Of a DNA stretch of 64,000 bases, positions 1,359 to 42,935 are shown in pieces. Below the pieces are notes generated by a model, which ran no database searches, had not been told where the DNA came from, and was given only the letters and a program-made list of their open reading frames with translations. Made by a program: the position numbers and the translations under genes. Origin of the DNA: Minwuia thermotolerans (GTDB taxonomy: Bacteria; Pseudomonadota; Alphaproteobacteria; Minwuiales; Minwuiaceae). The stretch spans positions 62,001 through 126,000 of the forward strand of contig NZ_PIGG01000014.1 of NCBI RefSeq assembly GCF_002924445.1, written 5' to 3'. Position 1 is the first letter of the stretch. Each line of letters starts with the position of its first letter.

Positions 1359-2102
1359 TCATTCCGCCGGCTGCATCGCCTGATGGCGCGCGGCCTGGGC
1401 CATGCGCATCATCCGGCTGCGCCGGCCGTGGATTTCACCGCGCACCCGGTAGATCAGGACCACCACATAATACGCCAGGAAACCCACTATCATCAGCAAT
1501 AGTGGCCAAAGCATGGAATTGTCGACCCGCGGACCATCCACGGTGATCAGCGTGGCGCCCTGGTGCAGCGTGTTCCACCATTCCACCGAGAACTTGATGA
1601 TCGGAATCATGACCACCCCGACGATGGCGAGGATCGCCGCCGCGACCGCCGCCTTGGCTTCCTCCTCGAAGGCCTGCCAGAGCGCCATGTAGCCGATGTA
1701 GATGAAGAACAGGATCAGGACCGAGGTCAGGCGCGCGTCCCAGACCCACCAGGTGCCCCACATCGGCTTGCCCCAGAGCGAACCGGTGAGCAGGCACAGG
1801 AAGCAGAAGGCGGCGCCCACCGGCGCCGAGGCCTTGGCGATCATGTCGGCGACCGCGTGACGCCAGATCAGCGCCACGGCGCTGGATACAGCCATGCCGA
1901 CATAGACGCCCATCGCCATCATCGCCGCCGGCACGTGAATGAACATGATGCGCACCGTATCGCCCTGCTGGTAGTCGGGCGGCGCGAAGAACAGGCCCCA
2001 GATCAGCCCCGCGCCGATGCAGGCGACGGCCACCGCCGCCGCGAAAGGCAAGATCGCCGAGGTCAGCCTGAGAAAACGCGTGGGATTTGCGAGCTTGTGC
2101 AT
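1359..2102 (-). CDS. ccmC: CcmC, heme-handling membrane protein of the CcmABCD complex
   Basis: CcmC presents heme to CcmE on the outer face of the cytoplasmic membrane. The 247-residue protein has six predicted helices, the tryptophan-rich periplasmic motif WGTWWVWD (about residues 115-122) and the two conserved axial histidines near H56 (FIHVPAAMM) and H180 (NTLHQGA). These are the hallmarks of the heme-handling protein family. It lies 37 bases upstream of ccmD and 81 bases downstream of ccmB; that 81-base spacer is the longest inside the operon. Confidence 0.96.
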   Translation of the reverse strand: MHKLANPTRFLRLTSAILPFAAAVAVACIGAGLIWGLFFAPPDYQQGDTVRIMFIHVPAAMMAMGVYVGMAVSSAVALIWRHAVADMIAKASAPVGAAFCFLCLLTGSLWGKPMWGTWWVWDARLTSVLILFFIYIGYMALWQAFEEEAKAAVAAAILAIVGVVMIPIIKFSVEWWNTLHQGATLITVDGPRVDNSMLWPLLLMIVGFLAYYVVVLIYRVRGEIHGRRSRMMRMAQAARHQAMQPAE

Positions 2103-2183
2103 CTGGCTCCCTAGATAGGACGGACCGACCCGCCGGAAAGTGATCCCCGTCTCAGCCCCGCTGCACAGGATTCACCTGAAAAA

Positions 2184-2852
2184 TCAATCGAGCGCAAGCC
2201 TTAGCGCCCATGCTGCGGCCATCGGCGCCATCACAATCGCGCCAAGCAGGATCGCGGCGAGGAAGAACAGGTTCGCGGCGGGATCGAAGTCCTGCAGCGC
2301 GGCCTCCACCGCACCGACGCCGAAGATCAGCACGGGGATGTAGAGCGGCGTGACGATAAGGGTGAGCAGCACGCCGCCGCGGCGGACGCCGACCGTCAGC
2401 GCCGCTCCGATGGCGCCGATCAGGCTGAGCGTCGGCGTGCCCAGCGCCATGGCCGCGACCAGCGTGGCGAAGCCCTCGAAGGGCAACTGCATCAGCAGCG
2501 CCAGCACCGGGGTCGCCAGGATCAACGGCAATCCCGTGGTCAGCCAGTGCGCGGCGATCTTGGCGGCGACGATCACCGGCAGCGGCACCGGCAGCAGCGC
2601 GAGGTGGTCAAGGCTGCCGTCCTCCAGGTCCGCCTGGAACAGCCGGTCGAGGGAAAGCAGCACCGACAGCAGCGCCGCGACCCAGATCACGCCCGAGGCG
2701 ATGCGCGAGAGCATTTCCGGCTCCGGCCCGATCCCGAGCGGGAACAACATGATCACCATGACGAAGAAGGCGATGACCAGCAGGCTCGCCCCGCCCTGGC
2801 GGCGCGCCAGCAGCAGGTCCCGGCGCACGACGGCGAGAAAGGCGGCAAGCAT
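2184..2852 (-). CDS. ccmB: CcmB, ABC heme-handling permease subunit
   Basis: CcmB is the membrane subunit that pairs with the CcmA ATPase to release holo-CcmE from CcmC. The 222-residue protein has six hydrophobic segments, a typical start (MLAAFLAVVRRDLLLARRQG) and the conserved inner region around FQADLEDGSLDHLAL. The start codon lies two bases beyond the ccmA stop, so the two are translated together. Length matches the family. Confidence 0.95.
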   Translation of the reverse strand: MLAAFLAVVRRDLLLARRQGGASLLVIAFFVMVIMLFPLGIGPEPEMLSRIASGVIWVAALLSVLLSLDRLFQADLEDGSLDHLALLPVPLPVIVAAKIAAHWLTTGLPLILATPVLALLMQLPFEGFATLVAAMALGTPTLSLIGAIGAALTVGVRRGGVLLTLIVTPLYIPVLIFGVGAVEAALQDFDPAANLFFLAAILLGAIVMAPMAAAWALRLALD

Positions 2853-2854
2853 GA

Positions 2855-3499
2855 TCAGTCCTCCGCCTCCGCGTACCAGTCGTCGATGTTCTCAGGCGGC
2901 GTGATCTCGAATTGCTCGCCTTCGACGCCGGGCAGCGGGGTGTGGGTCGCGGCGACGATCAGTCCGCCGGCGGAAAGGTGGTCCGCCATCACCCCGCCCA
3001 GGGCCGCGACCGCGTCCCGGTCCAGCGCGGTCACGGGTTCGTCCAGCAGCCAGAGCGCCGCCGGCTCGATCAGCAGCCGGCTCAGCGCCACGCGCCGGCG
3101 CTGGCCCGCCGACATGTAGCCTACGGGCAGATCGGCCAGTCCCTCGATGCCGAAACGCGCCAGCGCCTCCTGCGGGTCAGCCGCGCCGCCGCCCTTCAGG
3201 CGCGCCGCAAGGGCCAGATTTTCCGCCGCGGTCAGCGCGGGCTTCATGCCGTCCTTGTGGCCCGCATAGAGAAGTTCCGCACGGAATGCGTCCGGATCCG
3301 CGGCGATCGGCTCGCCGCGCCAGCGCACCTCCCCGGCGAACGGCCGCGCCAGACCGGCGATCATCCGCATCAGGGTCGACTTGCCGGCCCCGTTGCGGCC
3401 GGTCAGGGTCAGCATGCCGCCGGCGGCGACGGCAAAGCCGATGTCGGCGAAGATCAGGCGATCGCCCCGCATCGCCGCCAGTCCGATCCCTTCGAGCAC
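2855..3499 (-). CDS. ccmA: CcmA, ABC transporter ATPase of cytochrome c maturation
   Basis: This is the cytoplasmic ATPase that drives release of heme-loaded CcmE. The 214-residue protein shows a Walker A motif GRNGAGKST (residues 34-42), a signature region YMSAGQRRRVALSR, and Walker B WLLDEP. It is the first ccm gene, starting 11 bases after the folB stop, so folB and ccm may share a transcript. Confidence 0.96.
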   Translation of the reverse strand: MLEGIGLAAMRGDRLIFADIGFAVAAGGMLTLTGRNGAGKSTLMRMIAGLARPFAGEVRWRGEPIAADPDAFRAELLYAGHKDGMKPALTAAENLALAARLKGGGAADPQEALARFGIEGLADLPVGYMSAGQRRRVALSRLLIEPAALWLLDEPVTALDRDAVAALGGVMADHLSAGGLIVAATHTPLPGVEGEQFEITPPENIDDWYAEAED

Positions 3500-10110: not shown

Positions 10111-10626
10111 AAAAGATTCTCAACAGTTTCCGGATTCCGTTTCCGTAAAGTGCCGGCCTTGACTATACTCGATTGATAAAAATCAACTGCACCGTGCAAG
10201 AAATCCGTGCAGGCACAAGGGAAAGCTGCAGCAGGTGCAGAAGGCACTCCCTGACTGCAGACAAGGCATCGGGCAGGGAGGCGTTCCAGGCATGCCGGCC
10301 GAGAACGTTCTTTCGCATCCGCCCAGGGCGCTGGCGGATGTCTGGCGACAGCTACGTCTCGACCATGAGCCGCGGCGCGGGACCCTTTCCCGCCGCGACG
10401 GTTCCGCCGGGCTGTCGGATCCATCCATCGCGCCCCTTCCCCGCCGCGCACGCGCGCGCAACCGGCCCGGCTTTGCCCCACCCTGTCGGGCGGGACGCGG
10501 CGGCCCGGCTGCGTGTCCGGGCGAGGCGCCGCGGCCCCGCTGAACCCACGTTCAACCAATCGAGAAGCCGGCAAGCGGCGCTATTTCCGGAACCAGCAGC
10601 CATCCCATGCAGAAGACCCTTCCCAG
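10111..10626. other. Long intergenic region upstream of a sensor kinase
   Basis: 516 bases with no convincing gene. The left 90 bases are AT-richer than their surroundings and hold TTGACT (10159-10164), an overlapping good minus-10-like TATACT (10164-10169) and the FNR-type palindrome listed separately. The rest is GC-rich with several short CTGCAG/GTGCAG repeats around 10190-10260. Short open frames exist on both strands but lack family resemblance. A small RNA or a long leader for the kinase would fit; neither is shown. Confidence 0.55.
10173..10186 (+). promoter_or_regulatory. FNR/FixK/Anr-type binding site (perfect palindrome)
   Basis: TTGATAAAAATCAA matches the consensus TTGAT-N4-ATCAA of oxygen-responsive Crp/FNR regulators exactly on both arms. 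It lies 440 bases before the sensor kinase start and directly after a TATACT minus-10-like hexamer. If that hexamer is the promoter, the site would overlap the start of transcription and repress; otherwise it could activate a promoter further right. The site itself is clear; its target is inferred. Confidence 0.7.
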
Positions 10627-32491: not shown

Positions 32492-32519
32492 AAAACGCGC
32501 CGGCCCGGGGACCGGCGCG
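32492..32519 (-). terminator. Rho-independent terminator at the end of the multiheme cluster
   Basis: On the minus strand, an eight-base-pair stem (CGCGCCGG with CCGGCGCG, eight-base loop) is followed by TTTT. It lies 28 bases past the stop of the flavin reductase gene and closes the seven-gene electron-transfer cluster. Confidence 0.8.
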
Positions 32520-32546
32520 CTCAATGACGCGGAAATGTGGCGCCAA

Positions 32547-33830
32547 TCAGGCGTCCAGTTCCATGTCCGTCTTCGGTACCGAGATGCAGGTCAGGCAGGA
32601 GCCCTTGTCGACATCGGCGCTCGGCTCGGTGGCGTAATTCACCTCGCCGGCCAGCACGGCAGTGATGCAGGTGCCGCAGGCGCCGGCGCGGCAGCCCGAA
32701 TCCATGTCGATGTCATTGGCTTCGGCGAACTCGAGAATTGTGTCAGCCGATCCGTCCCAGACCAGTTCCTTTTCGGAACGCGTGAACTTCAGCTTGAAGC
32801 CGGAGCCGGAGACAGGCGCGGCGGCCCCGTCCTCGGTGTCCGCGGTCTTCTTCGACTTCACCGTCGCGGGACCGAAGGCCTCGAAGTGGATGCGAGATTC
32901 CGGCACGTCCCACTCGCGCAGGCCGTGGAACAGGCTCTCCATCATCGGCGGCGGGCCGCAGAAGTAGTAGTCGTAGTTGTTGGACGGCAGAACCTCACGG
33001 AACAGGTCCGCGCCGACACGGCCCTCCAGGTGGTAGTCCCTGCCCTGCTCGTCGTTGTCATCGGGCTTGGAGTAGACGATACGCACGTGGACGTTCTCGT
33101 TCTCCCGGTCGAGCCGCTCCAGATGCTCGCGGAAGACATGCTCGGCGCTGTTGCGGACGCCGAGGAAGAACCAGGTCTCCCGTTTCGAACCCGATTCCAC
33201 GATCGCATTGAGCATCGAAAGCACCGGCGTGATCCCGATGCCGCCGCCGATCAGCACGACCGGGGTCTGGCGGTGCATGTCGAGGAAGAAGTCGCCGTTG
33301 GGCGCCTGGACGTCGAGGATGTCGCCCTCGTTGACGTGGTCGTGGAAATAGTTGGACGACGACTTGCCCACATCGGCCTTCGCCGGATCCTTCGGCGGCG
33401 GGTTGCGCTTGATCGAAACCCGGTAATACTCGCTCTTCGGGCTGTCGGAGAGCGAATAGCAGCGGGTCGTCACCTTCTTGCCCGACGGCAGGTTGAGCTT
33501 GAAGGTCAGATACTGTCCGGGTTCGAAGGGCGGCAGCGGCCGTTCGTCATGCGGGCGGAGGTAGAAGGAACAGATGTCCTTGTTCTCGGGATTCTTGCGC
33601 TCGACGCGGAACTTGCGCACGCCATTCCAGGAAAGCTCGTTCTTCTGCTTGTCGAATTCGCGCGCCGCCTTGATGCGGTCCACCCGCTCGCGCAGATAGG
33701 CGATCTCGGCCTGGATGCCCCGGTCGGTGACGCCGGCGGCTCTGAAATTGTTGTAGATCAGGGACAGAACGTACAGGCCCATAAGGGCCAGCACGGCTAT
33801 CGCGACGTAGTTCACGGCTCCCAGTTCCAT
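32547..33830 (-). CDS. Membrane-anchored FAD/NAD(P) reductase with C-terminal [2Fe-2S] domain
   Basis: A 427-residue protein. One N-terminal helix (about 6-26) anchors it. A coiled segment leads to an FNR-type FAD domain (TRCYSLSDSP), an NAD domain (VVLIGGGIGITPVLSML, YYFCGPPPMM) and a C-terminal plant-type ferredoxin domain with GCRAGACGTC and a fourth cysteine in GSCLTC. The domain order is reversed relative to NqrF and matches phthalate-dioxygenase-reductase-like enzymes. As the last gene of the multiheme cluster it probably exchanges electrons between NAD(P)H and the membrane chain. Confidence 0.85.
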   Translation of the reverse strand: MELGAVNYVAIAVLALMGLYVLSLIYNNFRAAGVTDRGIQAEIAYLRERVDRIKAAREFDKQKNELSWNGVRKFRVERKNPENKDICSFYLRPHDERPLPPFEPGQYLTFKLNLPSGKKVTTRCYSLSDSPKSEYYRVSIKRNPPPKDPAKADVGKSSSNYFHDHVNEGDILDVQAPNGDFFLDMHRQTPVVLIGGGIGITPVLSMLNAIVESGSKRETWFFLGVRNSAEHVFREHLERLDRENENVHVRIVYSKPDDNDEQGRDYHLEGRVGADLFREVLPSNNYDYYFCGPPPMMESLFHGLREWDVPESRIHFEAFGPATVKSKKTADTEDGAAAPVSGSGFKLKFTRSEKELVWDGSADTILEFAEANDIDMDSGCRAGACGTCITAVLAGEVNYATEPSADVDKGSCLTCISVPKTDMELDA

Positions 33831-33879
33831 CCTGCCCTATCCCTCCTGTAAGACGGCGGCGGATCCCCCCGCCCGGACC

Positions 33880-33901
33880 GGCGGGGCCCGATCGCCCCGC
33901 C
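33880..33901 (-). other. GC-rich intercistronic hairpin between beta-barrel and reductase genes
   Basis: GGCGGGG and CCCCGCC form a seven-base-pair stem with an eight-base loop just after the beta-barrel gene stop. No U run follows on the minus strand, so it may protect the upstream mRNA or attenuate read-through rather than terminate fully. Confidence 0.55.
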
Positions 33902-33912
33902 CTGTCGGACCG

Positions 33913-35421
33913 TCAGAACTTGCGGCGCACCTCGAAACGGATGCCGCTGACATCATCGTCATTCTGGCGGATACCGTACATCGCGTCGGCCCGCAGAATC
34001 CATGCCTTCGATACAGGGAGCTGCCAGCGCACGCCGAGCGCGTACTGGTCGCCGTTGATGTTCGTGTTGTCGGCGTGCTCCTGGACGGTCGCCGCCTCGA
34101 GCACGAGTTGCTGGTCCAGATTGAACAGATACTGCACGCCGATGGCGCCGCCGAAGGTGCCGGCCGCAGTGTCGTCGAGGAACGGGAACCCGGTCAGGCC
34201 GTCGGTCTCGAAGTTGATGCCGGTGTTGATCAGCAGGCCTTCCGCATTCGCCAGCGCCTGCGGCCGTTTGAAGCCGACGAAGAAATTGGCGTAGGGGACC
34301 AGCGTATAGGGCTTGCTCGTCATCCAGCTGGTTTCCAACAGCAGGGCGGCGCCCTGTCCGAGCGTCGGCTGGCCGTCATCGCGGTTCTGGTGGCTGAAAT
34401 AGCCCCGGACCGAGTATGACAGGACGTTCTCATAGCGGGTCGACCATGACAGGCCGATGCTGAGCAGGTCCTGGTCGCCCAGCTTGTCGTCGTCGACGTC
34501 GATGAAGCCGAGACCGCCTTCGAAATAACCTTCCAGCGCCTCGATGAAGATGTTGGTGCCGTAGACGTTGGAATTGTGCTCGTTGCGCACGCCCGCGCCA
34601 TTGACGATGCCGTTGTTCTCGACATCGTCGAAGCCAGCGAAGAACGAGATGTCCATGTTGGAGATGTCGAGCTCCGGCGAGTTCAGCGCCGGGATCGCAT
34701 AGGCGATGCCCAGGACCTGGTCGTCCATCCAGATGCCGTTCTGGTAGAACAGCGGCACCAGGCCGAAGGAGAACGGATAGTCGCCGTCATAGTAGCGGCC
34801 CGTGAAGCCCGCAGCGATGGCGCCCGCGTCGCCCTCGAAGAACAGGGTCTCCAGGTTCAGGTCCGTCTGCAGGTCGCACTTGTCGGCGCTGTTGCCGCCG
34901 AAGAACTCGCAGCGGGTGAACTGACCGCCATTGTCGAGCGGCCGCAGGAAGGTGTGAATGCGCTCCGTCGAGGTGATCTTGAAATCGATGTCGAGGTTCA
35001 GACGCGTGGCGATCTGGCCGACTTCCGCATTGCCGTTGTCATTGAAGGCGATGGCGGTCCGGATGTCACCGAAGGCCTGGATCGCGAACTGCGTCGGATT
35101 GAGCTTGCCGAAGACGTAGCTCGGTTCATCGAGCTGGCCGGAAATGTACTGAGGCTGGCCAAGCTCGAACAGCGGCCTGGGCGCCTCGACCTCCGACTTG
35201 CCGCCGTAGATCGCCAGCTGCGCTTCGATGTCGTATTCGGTGTCCTCGTAGTTCGGATCGGGCTTGAAGGCCCCCTCCTCCAGCGGCACGCGCTTGGCGC
35301 CCGCGGACATTTCCGGATTGTAGTCTTCCGCCGCCCACGTTCCGCCGGCGGCGTAAACCAGTATCGCCGCGGCGGCGGTCGCGCCCGCGACGAATTTCCT
35401 GCCAAGAAGCACTCGATTCAT
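33913..35421 (-). CDS. Outer-membrane beta-barrel (porin-like) protein of the multiheme cluster
   Basis: A 502-residue exported protein with a signal peptide (AGATAAAAILVYAAGGTWA) and long alternating strands rich in aromatic and acidic residues. It ends in RFEVRRKF, with the terminal phenylalanine expected for outer-membrane barrels. One cysteine pair (RCEFFGG, KCDLQT) may form a loop disulfide. It has no CxxC motif of MtrB type. The ATG at 35421 gives a normal signal peptide. Lying between five-heme cytochrome and reductase genes, it could hold a cytochrome in the outer membrane or admit a substrate; which is unknown. Confidence 0.78.
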   Translation of the reverse strand: MNRVLLGRKFVAGATAAAAILVYAAGGTWAAEDYNPEMSAGAKRVPLEEGAFKPDPNYEDTEYDIEAQLAIYGGKSEVEAPRPLFELGQPQYISGQLDEPSYVFGKLNPTQFAIQAFGDIRTAIAFNDNGNAEVGQIATRLNLDIDFKITSTERIHTFLRPLDNGGQFTRCEFFGGNSADKCDLQTDLNLETLFFEGDAGAIAAGFTGRYYDGDYPFSFGLVPLFYQNGIWMDDQVLGIAYAIPALNSPELDISNMDISFFAGFDDVENNGIVNGAGVRNEHNSNVYGTNIFIEALEGYFEGGLGFIDVDDDKLGDQDLLSIGLSWSTRYENVLSYSVRGYFSHQNRDDGQPTLGQGAALLLETSWMTSKPYTLVPYANFFVGFKRPQALANAEGLLINTGINFETDGLTGFPFLDDTAAGTFGGAIGVQYLFNLDQQLVLEAATVQEHADNTNINGDQYALGVRWQLPVSKAWILRADAMYGIRQNDDDVSGIRFEVRRKF

Positions 35422-35475
35422 CTTCCCAAACCCCCCGGGCCCACCCTCCGGCCCCAAATCGAAACAAGGTCCTGA

Positions 35476-35504
35476 CCGGCCGCCGCGTTGTCGGCGGCGG
35501 CCGG
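35476..35504 (-). other. GC-rich intercistronic hairpin between five-heme cytochrome and beta-barrel genes
   Basis: A perfect eleven-base-pair stem (CCGGCCGCCGC with GCGGCGGCCGG, seven-base loop), 13 bases after the cytochrome stop. No U run follows. It may separate expression levels of the two genes. Confidence 0.6.
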
Positions 35505-35517
35505 CCGGCTGTGGCGG

Positions 35518-37305
35518 CTACTGGACCTCGATCTCCACAGTGTAGGGATGCATGTCCAGCATCCACTGGTTCATCGACTGCTCCATCTCCTTCGTCGCGC
35601 CGACGAAGCGCATGAAGTAGATGGGTTCCGCGCGGCTGCGCATCCGAGCCGAGAGCTTGTAGGTGCCCGGCTTGGTGAGCAGTTCGCCCGGCACCGAATA
35701 TTCGGCGTCGCGGGACGACAGCGGCGGGATCGAACGGGCCTCCATCCGCACGAACTGCGGGTGGTTGAGAACCGTTGTCGGCACGTTCGGCTGACGCAGG
35801 AACGGCCGCTGATCGACGTCGAAGTTCACCGGCAGGAACATCTCCCGATCCGTTCCCTTCACGTTGGTGGTCAGGAACTTGGTCTGAAGATTGAACAGCT
35901 GGCGGTCATGCTCGATCTTGCCCTGCTGGACGTCCTCCGAATGAAGGTCGGCCATGTCGCCGGCGCTGTCCACGTAACCCGATTCCCAGATGCGGTTGCC
36001 GTCCGGATCGGTCAGCGCGACGTTCAGCCAGATCTCCGGCTGGGCGCCCAGGCTGCCCGAGGGCAGATTGTGGCCCGAGTTCGTGTTGGTGACCTTGTAG
36101 GCGAACTGGAAGTCCTGGCCGACACGCGGGGCGCCGTCGAAGAACGGGCCGTCGAGATGGCTGCCGTTCTCCATCACCGCCCGGCGCAGTTCCTTCTTGT
36201 ATTCCAGCCCTTCGAGGTTCTCCTCGATGATGTAGCGGGCCTCGAAACGATCGTCCTCGGAAGACCAGACCTCGGGGAAATCGACCTCGATCTCGCCGTT
36301 GTATACCTTGTCCTCGAACTCCTCGGTGCCCCAGCCGGCGCGCCAGTCGAACTGCAGCCATTCCTCGATGGTCCAGTTCTCGGCGACCGGGTTGTGCGGG
36401 AAGATGCCCGGATGGGCGATCGGGTAGCCCGGACCGTAGAAGGCGTGATTGCTGCGGCGGCGGTCCGGATTGATCTCCTCGCCGTTCACCACTGCGGCCG
36501 GCCCCTGAGCATATCCTTCGGCCCTGCCCGGAACCTTGCCCATGTGGCATTCCTGACAGGTGATGCCCTCACGCAGAGCCGGGCTGTCGCGGTACTGGTC
36601 CCAGACCACCTCAAGCTTGATGCCCAGGTTCACGGCCACCTGGTGGCAGCTGGCGCAGAACTCGGATTTCGAGATCTGCTCGAACTTGACCACCTCGGTG
36701 TGGATCTGGTTGCCGCGCTCCTCGTCGGAGGTGGCGACGCGGTAGAAGCTCTTGTCCTTGATGACCTTCTTGAGCGTCTCGCCGTCGGAGTTGGTGTAGA
36801 CCGGCGCGTAGATGCGGCCGGGCTCGATCCGCCGCTCGCCGTTCACCTTGTAGTAGGTGTTGTTGACGCGGTGGCAGGTGATGCAGGTGATGCCCTCGCG
36901 CGCCACCTGGCTGCGCTCCCACAACGGCGCGGCACGCGATTCGCCGAGCGTCGTGCCGACGCTCTGATGGCAGCGCACGCAGAAGGTGCCGATCGTGCCC
37001 TGAGTCAGGTTCGTGATCGCCTGCTCGAACTTGTGGAACATGGGCGAGATCGACGCGTAGGCGTGGTTCGAAGACGACCACTCCCTGTAGATCTCCTCAT
37101 GACAGGCGGCGCACTTGGACGCGCTGGGGAACATGTCCTCGCTGAACAGTTCCGTATGCGCCTCGTCGCCAAGCTTCTGCGCCTCGGTGTCGCTCTGCGC
37201 CTGCGCGCTGGAGACCCCGAAGGCCAGAAATGCCGCCATGGCCAGCCCGCCGAAGCGTGCGACCAGGGCGCGGAATTCCGTCCGTCGTCCTGATGCGTTC
37301 ATCAT
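35518..37305 (-). CDS. Five-heme periplasmic cytochrome c with C-terminal beta-rich domain
   Basis: A 595-residue secreted protein: signal peptide ending SSAQAQ, then five CxxCH motifs in order CAACH, CVRCH, CITCH, CASCH, CQECH within the first half. Many extra histidines (SSNHAYASISPMFHKF) can serve as distal ligands. The C-terminal half has no hemes and reads like a beta-sandwich (KVTNTNSGHNLPSGS, WLNVALTDPDGNRIWESGY), a region seen in other large multiheme cytochromes. Two tandem ATGs follow a GGAGG; the first is used. It starts two bases after the stop of the ten-heme gene. Probable periplasmic electron carrier or reductase; substrate unknown. Confidence 0.88.
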   Translation of the reverse strand: MMNASGRRTEFRALVARFGGLAMAAFLAFGVSSAQAQSDTEAQKLGDEAHTELFSEDMFPSASKCAACHEEIYREWSSSNHAYASISPMFHKFEQAITNLTQGTIGTFCVRCHQSVGTTLGESRAAPLWERSQVAREGITCITCHRVNNTYYKVNGERRIEPGRIYAPVYTNSDGETLKKVIKDKSFYRVATSDEERGNQIHTEVVKFEQISKSEFCASCHQVAVNLGIKLEVVWDQYRDSPALREGITCQECHMGKVPGRAEGYAQGPAAVVNGEEINPDRRRSNHAFYGPGYPIAHPGIFPHNPVAENWTIEEWLQFDWRAGWGTEEFEDKVYNGEIEVDFPEVWSSEDDRFEARYIIEENLEGLEYKKELRRAVMENGSHLDGPFFDGAPRVGQDFQFAYKVTNTNSGHNLPSGSLGAQPEIWLNVALTDPDGNRIWESGYVDSAGDMADLHSEDVQQGKIEHDRQLFNLQTKFLTTNVKGTDREMFLPVNFDVDQRPFLRQPNVPTTVLNHPQFVRMEARSIPPLSSRDAEYSVPGELLTKPGTYKLSARMRSRAEPIYFMRFVGATKEMEQSMNQWMLDMHPYTVEIEVQ

Positions 37306-37307
37306 CC

Positions 37308-39326
37308 TCAACCTCCGTCCTGGCCGGGCCGTTCCGGTTCTTGTGCTGTCTGCTGGAAGCCCATCGTCCGAATGAAACCCGGCTCCAGATGATATTCGTG
37401 GCAAAGCTGACAGTCCTGTCGAACTTTTGCCTCGGTATGACACTGGGTGCAAGTCTCCTTGCCGATCGGTTTGAACCCGGGCGCGAAGTCCGTCGCATCG
37501 AAGTGTTTGAACGACGCGGCGTAATCCGCTTCGGGATTCAACTTGTGGCATGTTGCGCATAGTGTTCCCGGGCCGAGCAGATTGACATGGGGGCCGTGGT
37601 CGTATTGCACGTAGGGACGATCTTCCACTGGTTGATAACCCCATTCGACCATCAGCTTGGCCGCATCTTCTCCACCTTCGCCTGATTTGTCGGTGACCTC
37701 AGTCACAGCGTGGCACTTGGCGCAGTTGCCCAGGCCGGTATCGCCCAGAAGTGTGGTCTGAAGCAGCTCCGCCTGTTCGATCACAATCTCGTCAGCACCC
37801 GCCGCTTCGGCCGCCCGCGGCGCGTTCACGGCGAAGTCGAACCAAGCCCGGGCGATCGGATCGGCGTGGCCCGTCGGACGGTAGCTGACCGACACCCCTT
37901 CCGATTGCCAGCCGCCGCCGGTCAGTTCGCTCGGCGCCTCGTACTCCATCTTCTGCATCCAGGCGCAGGCAGCGCGGCGCAGGAGTTCGCCATCGAGGCC
38001 GGCCAGCAGACGTTCCGGACGGGCGTCGCCCGGCACTGCCTCCAGCCGCTCGACCATCGGTTCGAGCCCCGACTCGGCCAGCGCCATGAAGAACTCGCCC
38101 ACGGGTTCGTTGTACTCGTAGTTGTCGTCCGGCGGTGCGCCCAGCATCAACGCCATGGGCGGCGAGAGATAATCGCCCCAGTCCTCGTAGAAATACTCGT
38201 CGAATTCGACTTCGTCCGGGTCGCCGCCCTCGGCGCGCGCCCTCAGGAACTCGACCTGATCCGGTGTCGGCCCGCAGACCTCCGCCACCTGATCCATGTC
38301 GAAGGGATCTTCTTCCAGATACGGCAGGGTGATCAGACGCAGCGAACGGTCGGTGATTCCCTCCAGATGGCAGCTGGCGCAGTTCTGCTCGAAGCTGCCC
38401 GGCGGCACGTCGAGCCCGGCACGCTGAACATCGTGGCAGGTCACGCAGGTCGGCTGCTTGTCCTCGGCCAATTCCTTCGGAAAATACTGGCTGAAGTGAT
38501 TGACGTGATTGAACTGGATGGAACCGCGGCGATCATGCGGAAAACCGGCGGCGAAAGCCGGATGATCCCTGGAGAAGGAACTGACGGTGCTCTGGTGACA
38601 GCTGTTGCACTGGGCGTCCTTCATCGGCGCGATGTTCGCGTCCTTGCCCTTGTGCTCGGTGTGGCACATCACACAGTCGGTGCGCGTCTCCGCGCTCGGC
38701 GAATCGGTCGCGAAACCGCCCCCGCCGTCGAAGACCGCGTTGTGGGCGGTGGTGGCCGGTCCGCCGAACGCGTGGCAGTCGGTGCAGCTCTCGCCGACGG
38801 TCTGATGGGTCACGAAGGCCTCGGCCCAGGCGATCACGCCCTTGCCGTGCGCTTCATGGCAGGAGGTGCAGCCCGTTTCCTCCAGCGCGAAGTTCGAATG
38901 TGCCCGCGACAAGGGGCCCGGCATCAGCGAGGACAGATTGGCCTGGTCGCCCTGGAAGGCGGAAGGCTCGAAACGCAGCACCGCGAAGATCGCGGCGACC
39001 ACCAGGATCGCCACCAGGGTCGAGATCCGGAAACGCCGCCGGCGCAGGGACGGCTGCGGCGTGCACGGCGGATGCTGCATGCAGCACGTGCCGTCAGGCA
39101 TCGGCCCGTCGGCGCAGGGACCGCCCGCAGACGGCGACCGCCGGCACTCCCAGCGGTCGCCGTTGCGGAACGGCGTGCATTCCGTGGTGCCCCCGCATGA
39201 ACCGTCGAAGTTCGGCCCGTTCGGACAGGGCTGTCCGAAGCTGCACGCACGGCCGCAGACATAGGGAAATGTCGGCCGCTCATACGTGCTCTTCTGGTAG
39301 CTGTAGCGATCGGAGTCCGTGATCAT
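37308..39326 (-). CDS. Membrane-anchored ten-heme cytochrome c with Cys-rich cytoplasmic head
   Basis: A 672-residue protein. Residues 1-100 are hydrophilic with ten cysteines (C24, C28, C34, C44, C50, C61, C71, C81, C82, C88) in two related repeats, CPNGPNFDGSC and CADGPMPDGTC. RRRRFR then precedes one transmembrane helix (about 101-118), so the head should be cytoplasmic. The periplasmic part carries ten CxxCH motifs: CTSCH, CTDCH, CVMCH, CNSCH, CVTCH, CASCH, CAKCH, CATCH, CTQCH, CQLCH. It overlaps the cytochrome b gene by four bases. The head might bind Fe-S or zinc; that is inference. Confidence 0.88.
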   Translation of the reverse strand: MITDSDRYSYQKSTYERPTFPYVCGRACSFGQPCPNGPNFDGSCGGTTECTPFRNGDRWECRRSPSAGGPCADGPMPDGTCCMQHPPCTPQPSLRRRRFRISTLVAILVVAAIFAVLRFEPSAFQGDQANLSSLMPGPLSRAHSNFALEETGCTSCHEAHGKGVIAWAEAFVTHQTVGESCTDCHAFGGPATTAHNAVFDGGGGFATDSPSAETRTDCVMCHTEHKGKDANIAPMKDAQCNSCHQSTVSSFSRDHPAFAAGFPHDRRGSIQFNHVNHFSQYFPKELAEDKQPTCVTCHDVQRAGLDVPPGSFEQNCASCHLEGITDRSLRLITLPYLEEDPFDMDQVAEVCGPTPDQVEFLRARAEGGDPDEVEFDEYFYEDWGDYLSPPMALMLGAPPDDNYEYNEPVGEFFMALAESGLEPMVERLEAVPGDARPERLLAGLDGELLRRAACAWMQKMEYEAPSELTGGGWQSEGVSVSYRPTGHADPIARAWFDFAVNAPRAAEAAGADEIVIEQAELLQTTLLGDTGLGNCAKCHAVTEVTDKSGEGGEDAAKLMVEWGYQPVEDRPYVQYDHGPHVNLLGPGTLCATCHKLNPEADYAASFKHFDATDFAPGFKPIGKETCTQCHTEAKVRQDCQLCHEYHLEPGFIRTMGFQQTAQEPERPGQDGG

Positions 39327-40138
39327 AGCAGGTACACGTGAACCAGAATGATGTGCCAGACCATCAATACGAGCACGCCGGCGGCCATGGGCACGTGGAA
39401 GAGAAGCCAGATCTTTGCCGCGCCGTTGACGGCCCAGGCGAAATCAAGCCGGTTCTTGATGTGAGCCAGCTCTTCGAGCTCGCCCAAATAGCCGCGCTCG
39501 GTCTCATCGAGATAGCGCGAGATGGCCGCGGTTTCGCGGCGGATGAAGGCGCGGCCGGACTGGAAACCGAAAAAATGGCTGACCAGGTAGCGCGGCCGCC
39601 GGAAGTACCACGACAGGGTTTCGGCGTAGAACCGCGGCAGGGTATCGGAGGCCGTCTTCTCCGCTGATTCGACGACGATCGCTTCGGCCCGGTTGCGGAT
39701 CTCGGCGACCTCGTAGGGGATGCGCTCCCAGATCACCTCCAGGCCGTTCTCCGTCAGGCGGCGCGGGATGACCCGCTGCATCCAGTAGCCCAGAATGCCC
39801 GACAGGCTGGCCAGATAGAAGAAGACCGCGAGGACCTGTTCGTAGACGCCGTTCGGCCAGAACGAGCCGGTGTGAACGAAGAACACGGCGATGGTCAGCG
39901 TCCCGAACACGGCGTGAGCCATCGTCCAGTAAGCGGACCGCCCGAGCGGCACCATCGACAGCTTCTTGCGCCAGTTGAAGATGAACAGGAAGACCATCAG
40001 GCCGGCCAGGGTGTAGCCGGTGACGATCGCCGGCTCGCCATTGGCCAGCCAGGTCTGCCACGAATTCCAGATCAGGAAGACGAAGGCCGCGACGGCGACC
40101 AGCCAGAACAGGACCGTTGCGCGATGCACCGACCTCAT
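39323..40138 (-). CDS. Di-heme b-type cytochrome membrane subunit
   Basis: A 271-residue integral membrane protein with five helices. Histidines H75 and H89 in helix 3 and H248 and H262 in helix 5 are each spaced by 14 residues, the classical pattern for two stacked bis-histidine hemes b. A fifth histidine, H267, is near the C-terminus. A charged 100-residue cytoplasmic or periplasmic loop lies between helices 4 and 5. It overlaps both neighbours by four bases, so it is translated with the Fe-S and ten-heme proteins. Likely quinol-linked electron carrier across the membrane. Confidence 0.83.
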   Translation of the reverse strand: MRSVHRATVLFWLVAVAAFVFLIWNSWQTWLANGEPAIVTGYTLAGLMVFLFIFNWRKKLSMVPLGRSAYWTMAHAVFGTLTIAVFFVHTGSFWPNGVYEQVLAVFFYLASLSGILGYWMQRVIPRRLTENGLEVIWERIPYEVAEIRNRAEAIVVESAEKTASDTLPRFYAETLSWYFRRPRYLVSHFFGFQSGRAFIRRETAAISRYLDETERGYLGELEELAHIKNRLDFAWAVNGAAKIWLLFHVPMAAGVLVLMVWHIILVHVYLL

Positions 40139-41805
40139 TGGTAGCCCCCCCTGAACGGATCCGGCCCCCGGAAATCAACCCGGCGCAGCGCGTCGTGCGG
40201 ACAGGCCCGCTGGCACGCCGGTCCGCCGGGGTTGCTGGAGCAGAAATCGCACTTGGTCGCCTTCATGATCGGCTTGTGCTCGCCGTCGACCAGCGGCTCG
40301 CCGCGCTGATTGGCGACCTGGACCAGGCGGATGTTGTCATAGGGACAGGACGCCGCGCAGGTGCCGCAGCCAATGCAGGTGTCGTCGTTGACCACCACCG
40401 AACCGTCGGAGATCGAGCGGTGGATGGCGCCCGTCGGACAGCCGATCATGCACACCGGGTCGGCGCAGTGCATGCAGGCGTTGGCCACCATCCAGTGGTC
40501 GAAGGTGGCCCCGTGGCGGATGAAACGCGGATTGCCGCCGTGGGTGGCGGCGCAGGCGCGCACGCAATCGTCGCAGCGGGTGCAGCGGTTGAGGTCGATC
40601 AGCATCGCCCGCGTGCCATTGATGAAGCGCCGGCCGACGGCCCATTCCTTGAGCGCGTCGGCGCTGATCTCGTTGCCGGCCAGATGCCGCAGCTTGGTCT
40701 GCGGCGGCTCCATTTCCTTGAAGACGAATTCCTCGAGCACCTGCCGCGGAATGCGCAGGATGTCGAGATAGCCGAGCGCCGTGAGCGAAGTCTCCAGGAC
40801 GATGCTGTCGTCCTTGTCCTTCCAGGCCCGATAGAGCTCCTCCAGACCGTAGACATCGCCGGCGCCGAGATAGGTCAGCGTCCGCTCGCCATTGCCGATG
40901 CGGGCGGAGACCCGCGCGAAGCCGGCGCGGACCATGAGGATGCCGTCGGGATAGTCGCCTTCGCGCGCGATCGGCGTGCCGTGCTCCATCTCGCGCCCCT
41001 GGGCCAGCATCCGCTTGTAGCTGGTGTGCCAGTCGAAGGCGCCATGGGTCTCGAACAGCGTCGCATCCTCGACCGCCTTGAGCTGCTCGCCGGTGAGGTG
41101 GCGGAACATCGGCGCTTCCTTCAGCGCGTTGTGCAGCGCGTTGCGGCGGTAGGCGAGGTCGATCTTTTCCTTCCACGTGGTGTCGAAGCGGCGGAGTTCC
41201 CGCAGGCCCTGCCATCGGATTTCCAGCACGCGCGCTTCCGTCTCGGCGAAGATCGAGGCGGTGCGCGGCACGCGGCCCAGCGCGGCCAGCTCGCCGAAGA
41301 TCATCTCCGGGCCGAGCTGCGCTGTCTGGTGCTCGTCCAGGATGGCCGGGATGTCCTGCAGATAGACGCCGGCCATGGCGCCGGAGGAGCTGGCGGCCTG
41401 CGTGTTCTGATAGCGTTCGGGGTCCCGGACCTCGGGCCGCCAGTTGTTCGTCCAGAGCTGGCCCAGCGCCTCGAAGAAGCCCTTCTTCTTGACGCTCAGG
41501 CGGCCCAGCATGTTCTGCGGCAGGTTGGGGTTGAGCACCACCCGGAGATGGCCGTCCAGGATCAGGAAGGCGGAATTGCCGTAGTCGCCTTCGCGGACCA
41601 CGATCTCGCCGGGCTGATAGGTCGTCACGCGGGTGTCGTTGAGCAGGATGCCGCGGAGCGGCGTATTGCCCGGAAACCGGTCCTCGTCGATGTCGCGGAA
41701 GATCGGAAACGTCATCAGCTCGTCGACGACGGCTTCCGTCATGTCCGGTCCGAATGGCGTGGCCCACCGTTGCGGCCGGGCCATCGTTTCGACGGCTGTC
41801 ACCAT
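40135..41805 (-). CDS. Dual cyclic-nucleotide-binding domain protein fused to four-cluster ferredoxin
   Basis: A 556-residue protein without signal peptide, so cytoplasmic. Residues about 61-205 form a cNMP-binding domain with FGELAALGRVPRTA (E172, R181, the residues that hold ribose and phosphate), interrupted by an insert at about 92-163. Residues about 240-365 form a second, degenerate one (GLEELY, no arginine). Residues 403-556 hold sixteen cysteines in four groups (408-418, 444-456, 477-487, 519-535) like DmsB/HybA electron-transfer subunits. The ATG at 41805 begins the conserved part. It overlaps the cytochrome b gene, its probable partner. Confidence 0.87.
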   Translation of the reverse strand: MVTAVETMARPQRWATPFGPDMTEAVVDELMTFPIFRDIDEDRFPGNTPLRGILLNDTRVTTYQPGEIVVREGDYGNSAFLILDGHLRVVLNPNLPQNMLGRLSVKKKGFFEALGQLWTNNWRPEVRDPERYQNTQAASSSGAMAGVYLQDIPAILDEHQTAQLGPEMIFGELAALGRVPRTASIFAETEARVLEIRWQGLRELRRFDTTWKEKIDLAYRRNALHNALKEAPMFRHLTGEQLKAVEDATLFETHGAFDWHTSYKRMLAQGREMEHGTPIAREGDYPDGILMVRAGFARVSARIGNGERTLTYLGAGDVYGLEELYRAWKDKDDSIVLETSLTALGYLDILRIPRQVLEEFVFKEMEPPQTKLRHLAGNEISADALKEWAVGRRFINGTRAMLIDLNRCTRCDDCVRACAATHGGNPRFIRHGATFDHWMVANACMHCADPVCMIGCPTGAIHRSISDGSVVVNDDTCIGCGTCAASCPYDNIRLVQVANQRGEPLVDGEHKPIMKATKCDFCSSNPGGPACQRACPHDALRRVDFRGPDPFRGGYQ

Positions 41806-41878
41806 GTTTGCCTTGCCCCTCTCAGTCGCGGCGTCCGTCAGACACCACCGAACCGATCCCCCGGTAAGAATCGCCGAA

Positions 41879-41911
41879 CCGCCGCCGGAAGGCAAGCCCC
41901 CCCGGCGGCGG
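41879..41911 (-). other. GC-rich intercistronic hairpin after the tetraheme cytochrome gene
   Basis: CCGCCGCCGG and CCGGCGGCGG pair over ten bases with a thirteen-base loop, between the tetraheme gene stop and the Fe-S protein start. Without a U run it may work as an attenuator or mRNA 3'-end protector, giving more tetraheme cytochrome than downstream products. Confidence 0.55.
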
Positions 41912-41951
41912 TCGATGTGGCGATCAGCCTTCTATCGCAAGAGCATACCCC

Positions 41952-42935
41952 TTACTTGTACTCGCTCTTCGGCGGAATCATGGACCCGACCTGGCCGGAA
42001 AGGTCCATCTTGTCGCCATAGATCTTGCCGACCAGCGCCTTGGCGTTCGCCTCGGTGGGCTGGGCCAGCAGGGCCTTGGCTTCCGCCAGATCCAGCGCCC
42101 CCAGGGCCGCCCGCGCCTTCTCGGCCCGGGCCTCCTGCGCGGCGATGTACTTGGCGTGCTGGGTCTTCTGCATGGCGTTCGCCGCCTGCACCAGCGAGGC
42201 CGCCTGACCGGTCACGTACCAGCGCGACAGTTCGGCCGGGGTCATTTCCTCGTTGTCCTGGGTGCTGTGATAGAAGCGGTGGCGAATCGTACCCTGGCTG
42301 TACTTGACCAATTCGAAGTCCGGATTCAGCGGATGGCCGGCGTCCAGCATCTTGCCCGCCGTGTCGCCTTCCAGGGTCTCCCGCGCCATGCCGTGGCAGT
42401 TGAAGCAGTTCGCCGCCACGTCATAGTTCACGTCGGTCGGCATGTCCGGCACGTCCTCGCGCCAGCGCGGCAGCCGCATGCCCGCCTCGCGCGCCTTGGC
42501 GAAGCGCTCGGCCTTGTGCAACGGGGTCTCGTCTTCCTTCTTCGTGCCCTTCGGCCCGTAGACATTGTGGATGTTGATGTATTCCGACCCCGGGCCGTGG
42601 CAGCTCTCACAGGAAACGCCGAAATTGTTGCCTACGCGGCCGCCAGGGCGATTCGGCGCCTCGGTGTAGTGGCACTGCCCGCAGGTGTCGGAGCGCTTCA
42701 TCGAACGCTCGCCAAGGGCTTCCGTGACCTTGTCGGCCAGGTCGCGCTTGTGGATGTCCTTGTAGGATTCGGCGTGCGGGGTCTTTTCCCACACGGCATA
42801 TTCGGGCGAGTGGCAGTCCTTGCACTCTTCCGGTCCGACGTTCTCCGGCGCGGCCTGGGCGGCGCTGCCGGCGATCATGAGGGCCATGGCGGCAGCCACG
42901 GCCAACCCCAGTTGTCTCAGCCCAGACATCAGCAT
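41952..42935 (-). CDS. Tetraheme cytochrome c, c554-like
   Basis: A 327-residue periplasmic protein with signal peptide (AVAAAMALMIAGSAAQA). It has four CxxCH motifs, CKDCH (38-42), CGQCH (85-89), CESCH (109-113) and CFNCH (177-181), in the cytochrome c554 pattern (GPEECKDCHSPEYAVWEKTPH). The C-terminal third is alanine-rich helix with no hemes. The ATG at 42935 is preceded by GAGGTGA; an upstream GTG at 42968 is less likely. It is the first gene of the seven-gene cluster and likely the soluble periplasmic shuttle. Confidence 0.89.
   Translation of the reverse strand: MLMSGLRQLGLAVAAAMALMIAGSAAQAAPENVGPEECKDCHSPEYAVWEKTPHAESYKDIHKRDLADKVTEALGERSMKRSDTCGQCHYTEAPNRPGGRVGNNFGVSCESCHGPGSEYINIHNVYGPKGTKKEDETPLHKAERFAKAREAGMRLPRWREDVPDMPTDVNYDVAANCFNCHGMARETLEGDTAGKMLDAGHPLNPDFELVKYSQGTIRHRFYHSTQDNEEMTPAELSRWYVTGQAASLVQAANAMQKTQHAKYIAAQEARAEKARAALGALDLAEAKALLAQPTEANAKALVGKIYGDKMDLSGQVGSMIPPKSEYK

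Follow-up and report, generated by a model that had tools for sequence, protein, structure and literature searches.

A conserved seven-gene cluster with 19 c-type hemes in Minwuia: a candidate NAD(P)H-to-outer-membrane electron chain

Most of what is known about electron transfer across the bacterial envelope comes from organisms that reduce metals or oxidise iron, in which quinol usually makes the link at the inner membrane. What, then, is the role of seven adjacent genes that encode redox proteins for both membranes and belong to no named pathway? The genes lie in one direction on the minus strand, at 32547-42935 of a 64,000-nucleotide stretch of the Minwuia thermotolerans contig NZ_PIGG01000014.1 (hereafter the window), and encode an exported tetraheme cytochrome (C554), a protein that combines cyclic nucleoside monophosphate (cNMP)-binding domains with iron-sulfur groups (CNMPFeS), a diheme b-type cytochrome (CYTB), an anchored ten-heme cytochrome (DECA), an exported pentaheme cytochrome (PENTA), a putative outer-membrane barrel (BARREL) and a membrane-anchored flavin reductase (FAD). 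On balance, their sequences probably describe a complete outward electron chain, running from NAD(P)H to the outer membrane, switched by a cyclic nucleotide and ending at PENTA-BARREL. If this is true, (i) a conserved NAD(P)H route would cross both membranes in many alphaproteobacterial families; (ii) a cyclic nucleotide would possibly control an electron chain directly; and (iii) the poorly understood pentaheme PHC cytochromes would gain a physiological home. The fixed gene set, the pair of modules that co-vary within it and the sister form described below are all testable in culturable, non-pathogenic bacteria.

Cofactor-bearing domains for every step of such a chain are encoded together, which supports it (Table 1). 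The initial annotation counted seven minus-strand genes with 19 c-type hemes; the open reading frames (ORFs) are where it placed them, with 4 CXXCH motifs in C554, 10 in DECA and 5 in PENTA. Its protein types are also borne out: CNMPFeS has 16 cysteines in four ferredoxin-type groups, all 16 invariant among 21 homologues; CYTB has four invariant histidines (75, 89, 248 and 262) and five transmembrane (TM)-like segments; and FAD, with its Pfam matches, is laid out as an N-terminal TM segment followed by FAD, NAD(P) and 2Fe-2S domains, its top NCBIfam match, under the cut-off, being the reductase part of flavohemoprotein. All heme cysteines and histidines of C554 are invariant in 18 homologues. 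The histidine pairs of CYTB, 75/89 and 248/262, are 14 residues apart with one helix per pair, an arrangement that would place two b hemes one above the other through the membrane. DECA reads, in order, as a cytoplasmic eight-Cys domain, an RRRR stretch, one TM segment and ten hemes; the eight cysteines, retained in 28-29 of 37 homologues, fall in no Pfam family and possibly form a new metal-binding domain.

Why would an iron-sulfur protein carry two cNMP-binding domains? One of them keeps a canonical phosphate-binding cassette, FGELAALGRVPRTAS, of the pattern FGE...R: FG is present in 35 of 35 homologues and Glu in 34 of 35. The conserved Gly, Glu and Arg that define this cassette in cAMP/cGMP-binding proteins are all in place, and Glu and Arg are the residues that contact cAMP or cGMP in known domains. 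Because this cassette is retained, gating through CNMPFeS by a cyclic nucleotide is likely, as far as the motif can tell; the second cassette is degenerate in the window form.

Is this set of genes more than a local assembly? A CYTB search matched 25 of 398 genomes of the phylum, and 16 of those neighbourhoods, plus two from DECA relatives, were read; a PENTA profile matched 31 of 385 alphaproteobacterial genomes strongly (E below 1e-50), and in all 20 of the neighbourhoods read from these BARREL adjoins PENTA. Full seven-gene sets occur beyond Minwuia at 14 loci (L046, L047, L048, L096-L099, L102-L104, L106-L108 and L115) from 11 further alphaproteobacterial families. Since the same set recurs across families, it lies far beyond chance; the initial annotation had held that conserved order across distant taxa would support a discrete system, and such a system is what these loci support. 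Two orders dominate: C554-CNMPFeS-CYTB-DECA-PENTA-BARREL-FAD and its circular permutation, PENTA-BARREL-FAD-C554-CNMPFeS-CYTB-DECA; the arrangement at L106 is divergent. CYTB is found in 67 of the 385 genomes, including all 31 that have PENTA (5.4 expected; hypergeometric p 2e-27, a value that ignores shared descent), and the co-occurrence counted by family is 18/18, on a hand-compiled family list and likewise with shared descent ignored. Genomes in which PENTA-BARREL is separate from the other genes encode CYTB at another place. In other classes of the phylum, most clusters have the five-gene core but no PENTA-BARREL, and several of these core-only genomes encode shorter PENTA relatives elsewhere (400-450 residues; homologue ORFs were taken at their full open length, which overestimates some of them). 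Among the loci examined, no further gene is a regular neighbour of the cluster.

Pairwise protein distances, correlated over 15 loci that have all seven genes, divide the system further. Within C554, CNMPFeS, CYTB and DECA, r is 0.83-0.96 (0.91 for CNMPFeS-CYTB); for PENTA against BARREL it reaches 0.98; and between the quartet and the pair it falls to about 0.5. Together with the weak values of FAD, given below, these correlations point to three parts: a quartet of the inner membrane and periplasm and a pair of the outer membrane, each tightly knit, and an input protein that is loosely tied to them. On the evidence of these distances, the system is built from modules that can be exchanged and is not a single fixed unit of seven genes.

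What kind of cytochrome would stand at the end of the chain? By its hemes, five CXXCH in the PHC pattern, PENTA belongs to the PHC cytochromes, a family proposed to comprise ExtKL, Gsu2801 and, by structure, cytochrome c552 (PMC11976967); six further histidines are invariant. The PENTA profile matches Thermochromatium tepidum c552 (5ZE8) at 4.7e-13, or 1.3e-18 after relatives are added, and the expanded profile also matches MccSep, a multiheme selenoprotein (9WT8/9WT9), at about 1e-6. PENTA aligns to both in three collinear blocks, two of hemes and one with an H-x2-P-x-G motif; the last aligns weakly by itself (10.0 bits to 5ZE8, 8.9 bits to MccSep), in the part where the PHC definition has an Ig-like domain. 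PENTA thus shares collinear hemes and a C-terminal block with c552 but is longer (about 595 residues versus 435), with the three blocks alone aligning; it has Ser or Phe after the H-x2-P-x-G block, with no selenocysteine or cysteine there, whereas MccSep has selenocysteine; and it scores 52.8 bits against the ExtKL model NF040886 (cut-off 250), which places it outside the ExtKL equivalogs. The five-heme protein had been singled out as the best candidate for a terminal oxidoreductase; it stays the likely terminal component and now has a described family.

Its partner is more elusive. BARREL, with 499 residues and some 17 amphipathic peaks (a crude count), matches no family above cut-off, and profile searches against the PDB returned nothing credible for it or for CYTB. 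A signal-like N-terminal segment, a C-terminal Phe and the amphipathic strands suggest an outer-membrane barrel, probably too small to surround PENTA in the way that MtrB surrounds MtrA; an anchor or channel role is therefore at least as likely as that of a sheath.

From these parts we infer the following course. On the cytoplasmic side, NAD(P)H would reduce the membrane-anchored FAD protein with its [2Fe-2S] group. The next carriers would be the four [4Fe-4S] clusters of CNMPFeS, where cAMP or cGMP at the intact site would switch the flow. The electrons would then cross the inner membrane via the two b hemes of CYTB and enter the anchored DECA, from which C554, a proposed periplasmic shuttle, would carry them to PENTA. 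Working in a complex with BARREL, PENTA would act as terminal reductase or electron outlet, with an acceptor located at the outer membrane or arriving through it. The leading candidates for this acceptor are an oxyanion (such as selenite or tellurite) and Fe(III). The PENTA-BARREL pair appears to parallel the porin-pentaheme pair ExtI-ExtKL, which has a selenite/tellurite phenotype (PMC5877670).

Several observations weigh against such a chain. FAD co-varies weakly with the other six proteins (r 0.13-0.50), and two loci, L060 and L101, are without CNMPFeS. AlphaFold models, built from shallow alignments of close relatives, are unusable for BARREL (pLDDT 33, where pLDDT is the predicted local distance difference test) and uninformative for CYTB: the latter is helical, with low to moderate confidence (pLDDT 66), and a fold search with it gave no match.

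Table 1. Features of the cluster, in window coordinates
Feature	Position	Strand	Basis
C554, exported tetraheme cytochrome, c554-like	41952..42935	-	4 CXXCH; PF13435 53.7 bits vs cut-off 20.8
CNMPFeS, two cNMP-binding domains and four [4Fe-4S] groups, cytoplasmic	40135..41805	-	Pfam cNMP_binding, Fer4
cNMP phosphate-binding cassette FGELAALGRVPRTAS in CNMPFeS, canonical	41230..41313	-	conserved, 35 homologues
CYTB, diheme b-type cytochrome, five TM, inner membrane	39323..40138	-	invariant His, TM-like segments
DECA, ten-heme periplasmic cytochrome, N-terminal cytoplasmic domain, one TM anchor	37308..39326	-	10 CXXCH; TM-like 99-117
Eight-Cys tandem domain of DECA	39063..39257	-	(C-x9-C-x9-C-x5-C) twice in window protein, one residue off
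PENTA, exported pentaheme PHC-family cytochrome, C-terminal GHNLPSG domain	35518..37305	-	5 CXXCH; profile matches to c552 5ZE8 (1.3e-18) and MccSep (8e-7)
BARREL, predicted outer-membrane beta-barrel partner of PENTA	33913..35412	-	signal-like segment, C-terminal Phe
FAD, membrane-anchored NAD(P)H/FAD/[2Fe-2S] reductase	32547..33830	-	PF00175, PF00970, PF00111 above cut-off; TM-like 8-26
Hairpin, terminator-like, then UUUUC	32493..32521	-	-26.8 kcal/mol, z -3.7

Does the chain reach the outer membrane at all? PENTA could be purely periplasmic, reducing some small solute, such as selenite, tellurite, NO or O2, that enters through BARREL as a mere diffusion channel, so that the electrons stay in the cell. 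The modest size of BARREL would suit this role, and so would a comparison with ExtI, which resembles phosphate-selective porins and is needed for normal reduction of selenite and tellurite but not of Fe(III) citrate (PMC5877670); a truncated globin gene upstream of PENTA at one locus also points this way. The near-perfect correlation of PENTA with BARREL, however, suggests physical contact over a passive pore, and we consider a solute reductase of this kind somewhat unlikely. The system might also be a ferric reductase that serves iron uptake and not respiration, as hinted by distant full-length PENTA relatives between imelysin and FTR1 genes on two plasmids and by the reported Fur regulation of the ext genes (PMC5877670); but across about 40 loci no iron transporter is found repeatedly beside the cluster, which makes this an unlikely function.

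At the inner membrane, the question is where electrons enter and which way they run. Quinol at CYTB, not NAD(P)H, could feed the chain, with the FAD protein serving something else. Cytochromes of the b561/Ni_hydr_CYTB types can swap electrons with quinones, and a Sphingobium homologue of CYTB is weakly similar to them, below cut-off; FAD, moreover, co-varies least of the genes. Yet the genes of CNMPFeS and CYTB overlap by four bases and their products co-vary closely, and the iron-sulfur protein of the sister form carries a fused pyridine-nucleotide reductase: a quinol donor is distinctly unlikely, and of the two donors that the initial annotation allowed, NAD(P)H is the one now supported. Inward flow, with a donor outside the cell supplying PENTA-BARREL and NAD(P)+ reduced at the other end of the chain, draws on the reversibility, in principle, of multiheme wires and on the source of c552 (5ZE8), a sulfur-oxidising phototroph (PMC11976967). 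It strikes us as very unlikely: no energy-coupling subunit for the uphill transfer is seen, and the homologues of the reductase (flavohemoprotein and oxygenase reductases) oxidise NAD(P)H. It is because of the donor and the reductase class that the NAD(P)H-to-PENTA-BARREL chain is drawn as running outward.

Could this be a known system in a variant form? Comparisons with family models and the open-licence literature revealed no named pathway, in agreement with the initial annotation, and no match to MtrB-, CymA- or MtrA-type parts or to a named terminal enzyme; a published description of the gene combination was likewise not found in that literature, an incomplete sample that makes this weak evidence. 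In the closest parallel, Geobacter extHIJKLMNOPQS, a pentaheme cytochrome from the family of PENTA also neighbours a porin-like barrel, and the cluster contains more multiheme cytochromes as well as b-type ones (PMC5877670). Unlike the Ext proteins, however, the seven match no ExtI, ExtM, ExtN, ExtO or ExtP, and lack a Rieske protein, having an NAD(P)H/cNMP/4Fe-4S input instead. MtrCAB, MtoAB and PioAB share the pairing of a multiheme cytochrome with an outer-membrane barrel and the function of a trans-envelope conduit, but neither BARREL nor any of six homologues falls in an MtrB family, and against the DmsE/MtrA decaheme model (TIGR03508, cut-off 192.2) PENTA scores 28.2 and DECA 24 bits. 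Among the seven, PENTA alone touches the CymA/NapC-NirT family PF03264 (26.3 bits, with no significant separate stretch); it scores 16.4 against 310.6 for TIGR02161 and is an exported pentaheme, not a membrane tetraheme, protein. NqrF is also an NADH-FAD-2Fe-2S reductase, but FAD reaches 94.9 bits against the 295 of TIGR01941 and has no Nqr partner genes; Hmc also joins membrane-bound Fe-S, b and multiheme c parts, but HmcA gives 37.6 bits against 400 and no further Hmc subunits are found.

Porin-cytochrome clusters of other bacteria differ in composition. Uet of Tenderia combines a porin with several multiheme cytochromes, as here, and comprises the undecaheme UetJ, triheme proteins, a peptidyl-prolyl isomerase and NHL proteins; PCC3 of Gallionellaceae has a porin and cytochromes with 10-35 hemes; for neither are cNMP/Fe-S, b or FAD parts listed (PMC10734462). 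Uet was rejected as an identity on this ground, its UetJ, isomerase and NHL proteins being absent from the seven genes, as was a Methylobacter porin-cytochrome cluster, also on composition. The system would thus work as a porin-cytochrome electron chain that differs by its NAD(P)H input, cNMP-binding Fe-S subunit, eight-Cys domain and exchangeable modules, and there is a real chance that it is a new class.

How far might such a class extend? A sister form occurs at L061-L063, L110, L112, L114 and on the Sphingobium herbicidovorans plasmid pMSHV (L117). It has a homologous CYTB (on pMSHV, hhalign 100%, E 3e-44), a cNMP/4Fe-4S protein of about 800 residues and a decaheme protein (downstream on pMSHV), in which an FHA/YscD-like domain replaces the eight-Cys domain. 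Unlike in the window, the input is exchanged: a pyridine-nucleotide reductase is fused to the cNMP/Fe-S protein (where checked, at L061, and on pMSHV), and on pMSHV a giant multiheme cytochrome replaces PENTA-BARREL. The fusion implies that transfer from nucleotide to 4Fe-4S to b heme is a common theme. Both forms may exemplify a widespread, unnamed class of cNMP-gated NAD(P)H:periplasm complexes (cNMP/4x[4Fe-4S] protein, diheme b, anchored decaheme) with interchangeable outer-membrane end modules, on whose wire a second messenger would act directly, pentaheme-barrel being one end module and the giant cytochrome another; we hold this tentatively, at somewhat short of an even chance.

The giant cytochromes, of the LVIVD-repeat multiheme type, lie beside the sister form at L061:2494-6600 (1368 residues, 10 CXXCH) and on pMSHV (about 1330 residues), where a two-partner secretion transporter of the FhaC/ShlB type is also close by (L117:13617-16919 and 1731-3410). 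An aldehyde ferredoxin oxidoreductase gene (L101:193-2130) is found upstream of a variant cluster without CNMPFeS and FAD. Genes related to PENTA lie between imelysin and FTR1 iron-uptake genes on plasmids of Shinella and Nitratiruptor (L116:6152-11623 and L118:7338-12288), and the Shinella relative aligns across most of PENTA (hhalign 99.9%); a search of plasmids with DECA gave no match. The globin gene noted above is at L105:11728-12150, and in cable bacteria truncated globins are fused to PHC cytochromes (PMC11976967). At L109, PENTA-BARREL accompanies a C554-like gene with four hemes, and the alphaproteobacterial host is very rich in AT (GC about 0.2 at third codon positions); the pair is therefore not restricted to high-GC hosts.

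Within the window, probable starts lie inside the longest ORFs, at 42935, 41805, 37305 and 35412, with a longer start possible for CNMPFeS at 41895. Of the several four-base overlaps initially reported, exactly two junctions have one (39323-39326 and 40135-40138), and the reported terminator corresponds to a hairpin directly behind the last stop codon of the cluster, although a consensus terminator scan did not list it. An Rfam search gave no match, and no FNR-type palindrome occurs near the cluster; the sole FNR/CRP-type palindrome, TTGATAAAAATCAA, is distant from it, at 10173-10186, with 0.2 expected by chance. Past the hairpin, the next gene encodes a uracil-DNA-glycosylase family protein; the flanking genes scanned are unrelated, except for one diverging from C554 (43135-43443), whose small exported TPR product has weak CcmH/CycH-like similarity and may play a part in heme attachment. 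The host resembles Minwuia: the nearest named relatives of DECA (65-66% identity) are from Minwuia genomes and an isolate filed as Kordiimonadales bacterium IMCC3096, and DECA is present in all seven searched genomes of the genus. Minwuia is an alphaproteobacterium of marine origin that carries genes for aerobic denitrification (PMC8879329).

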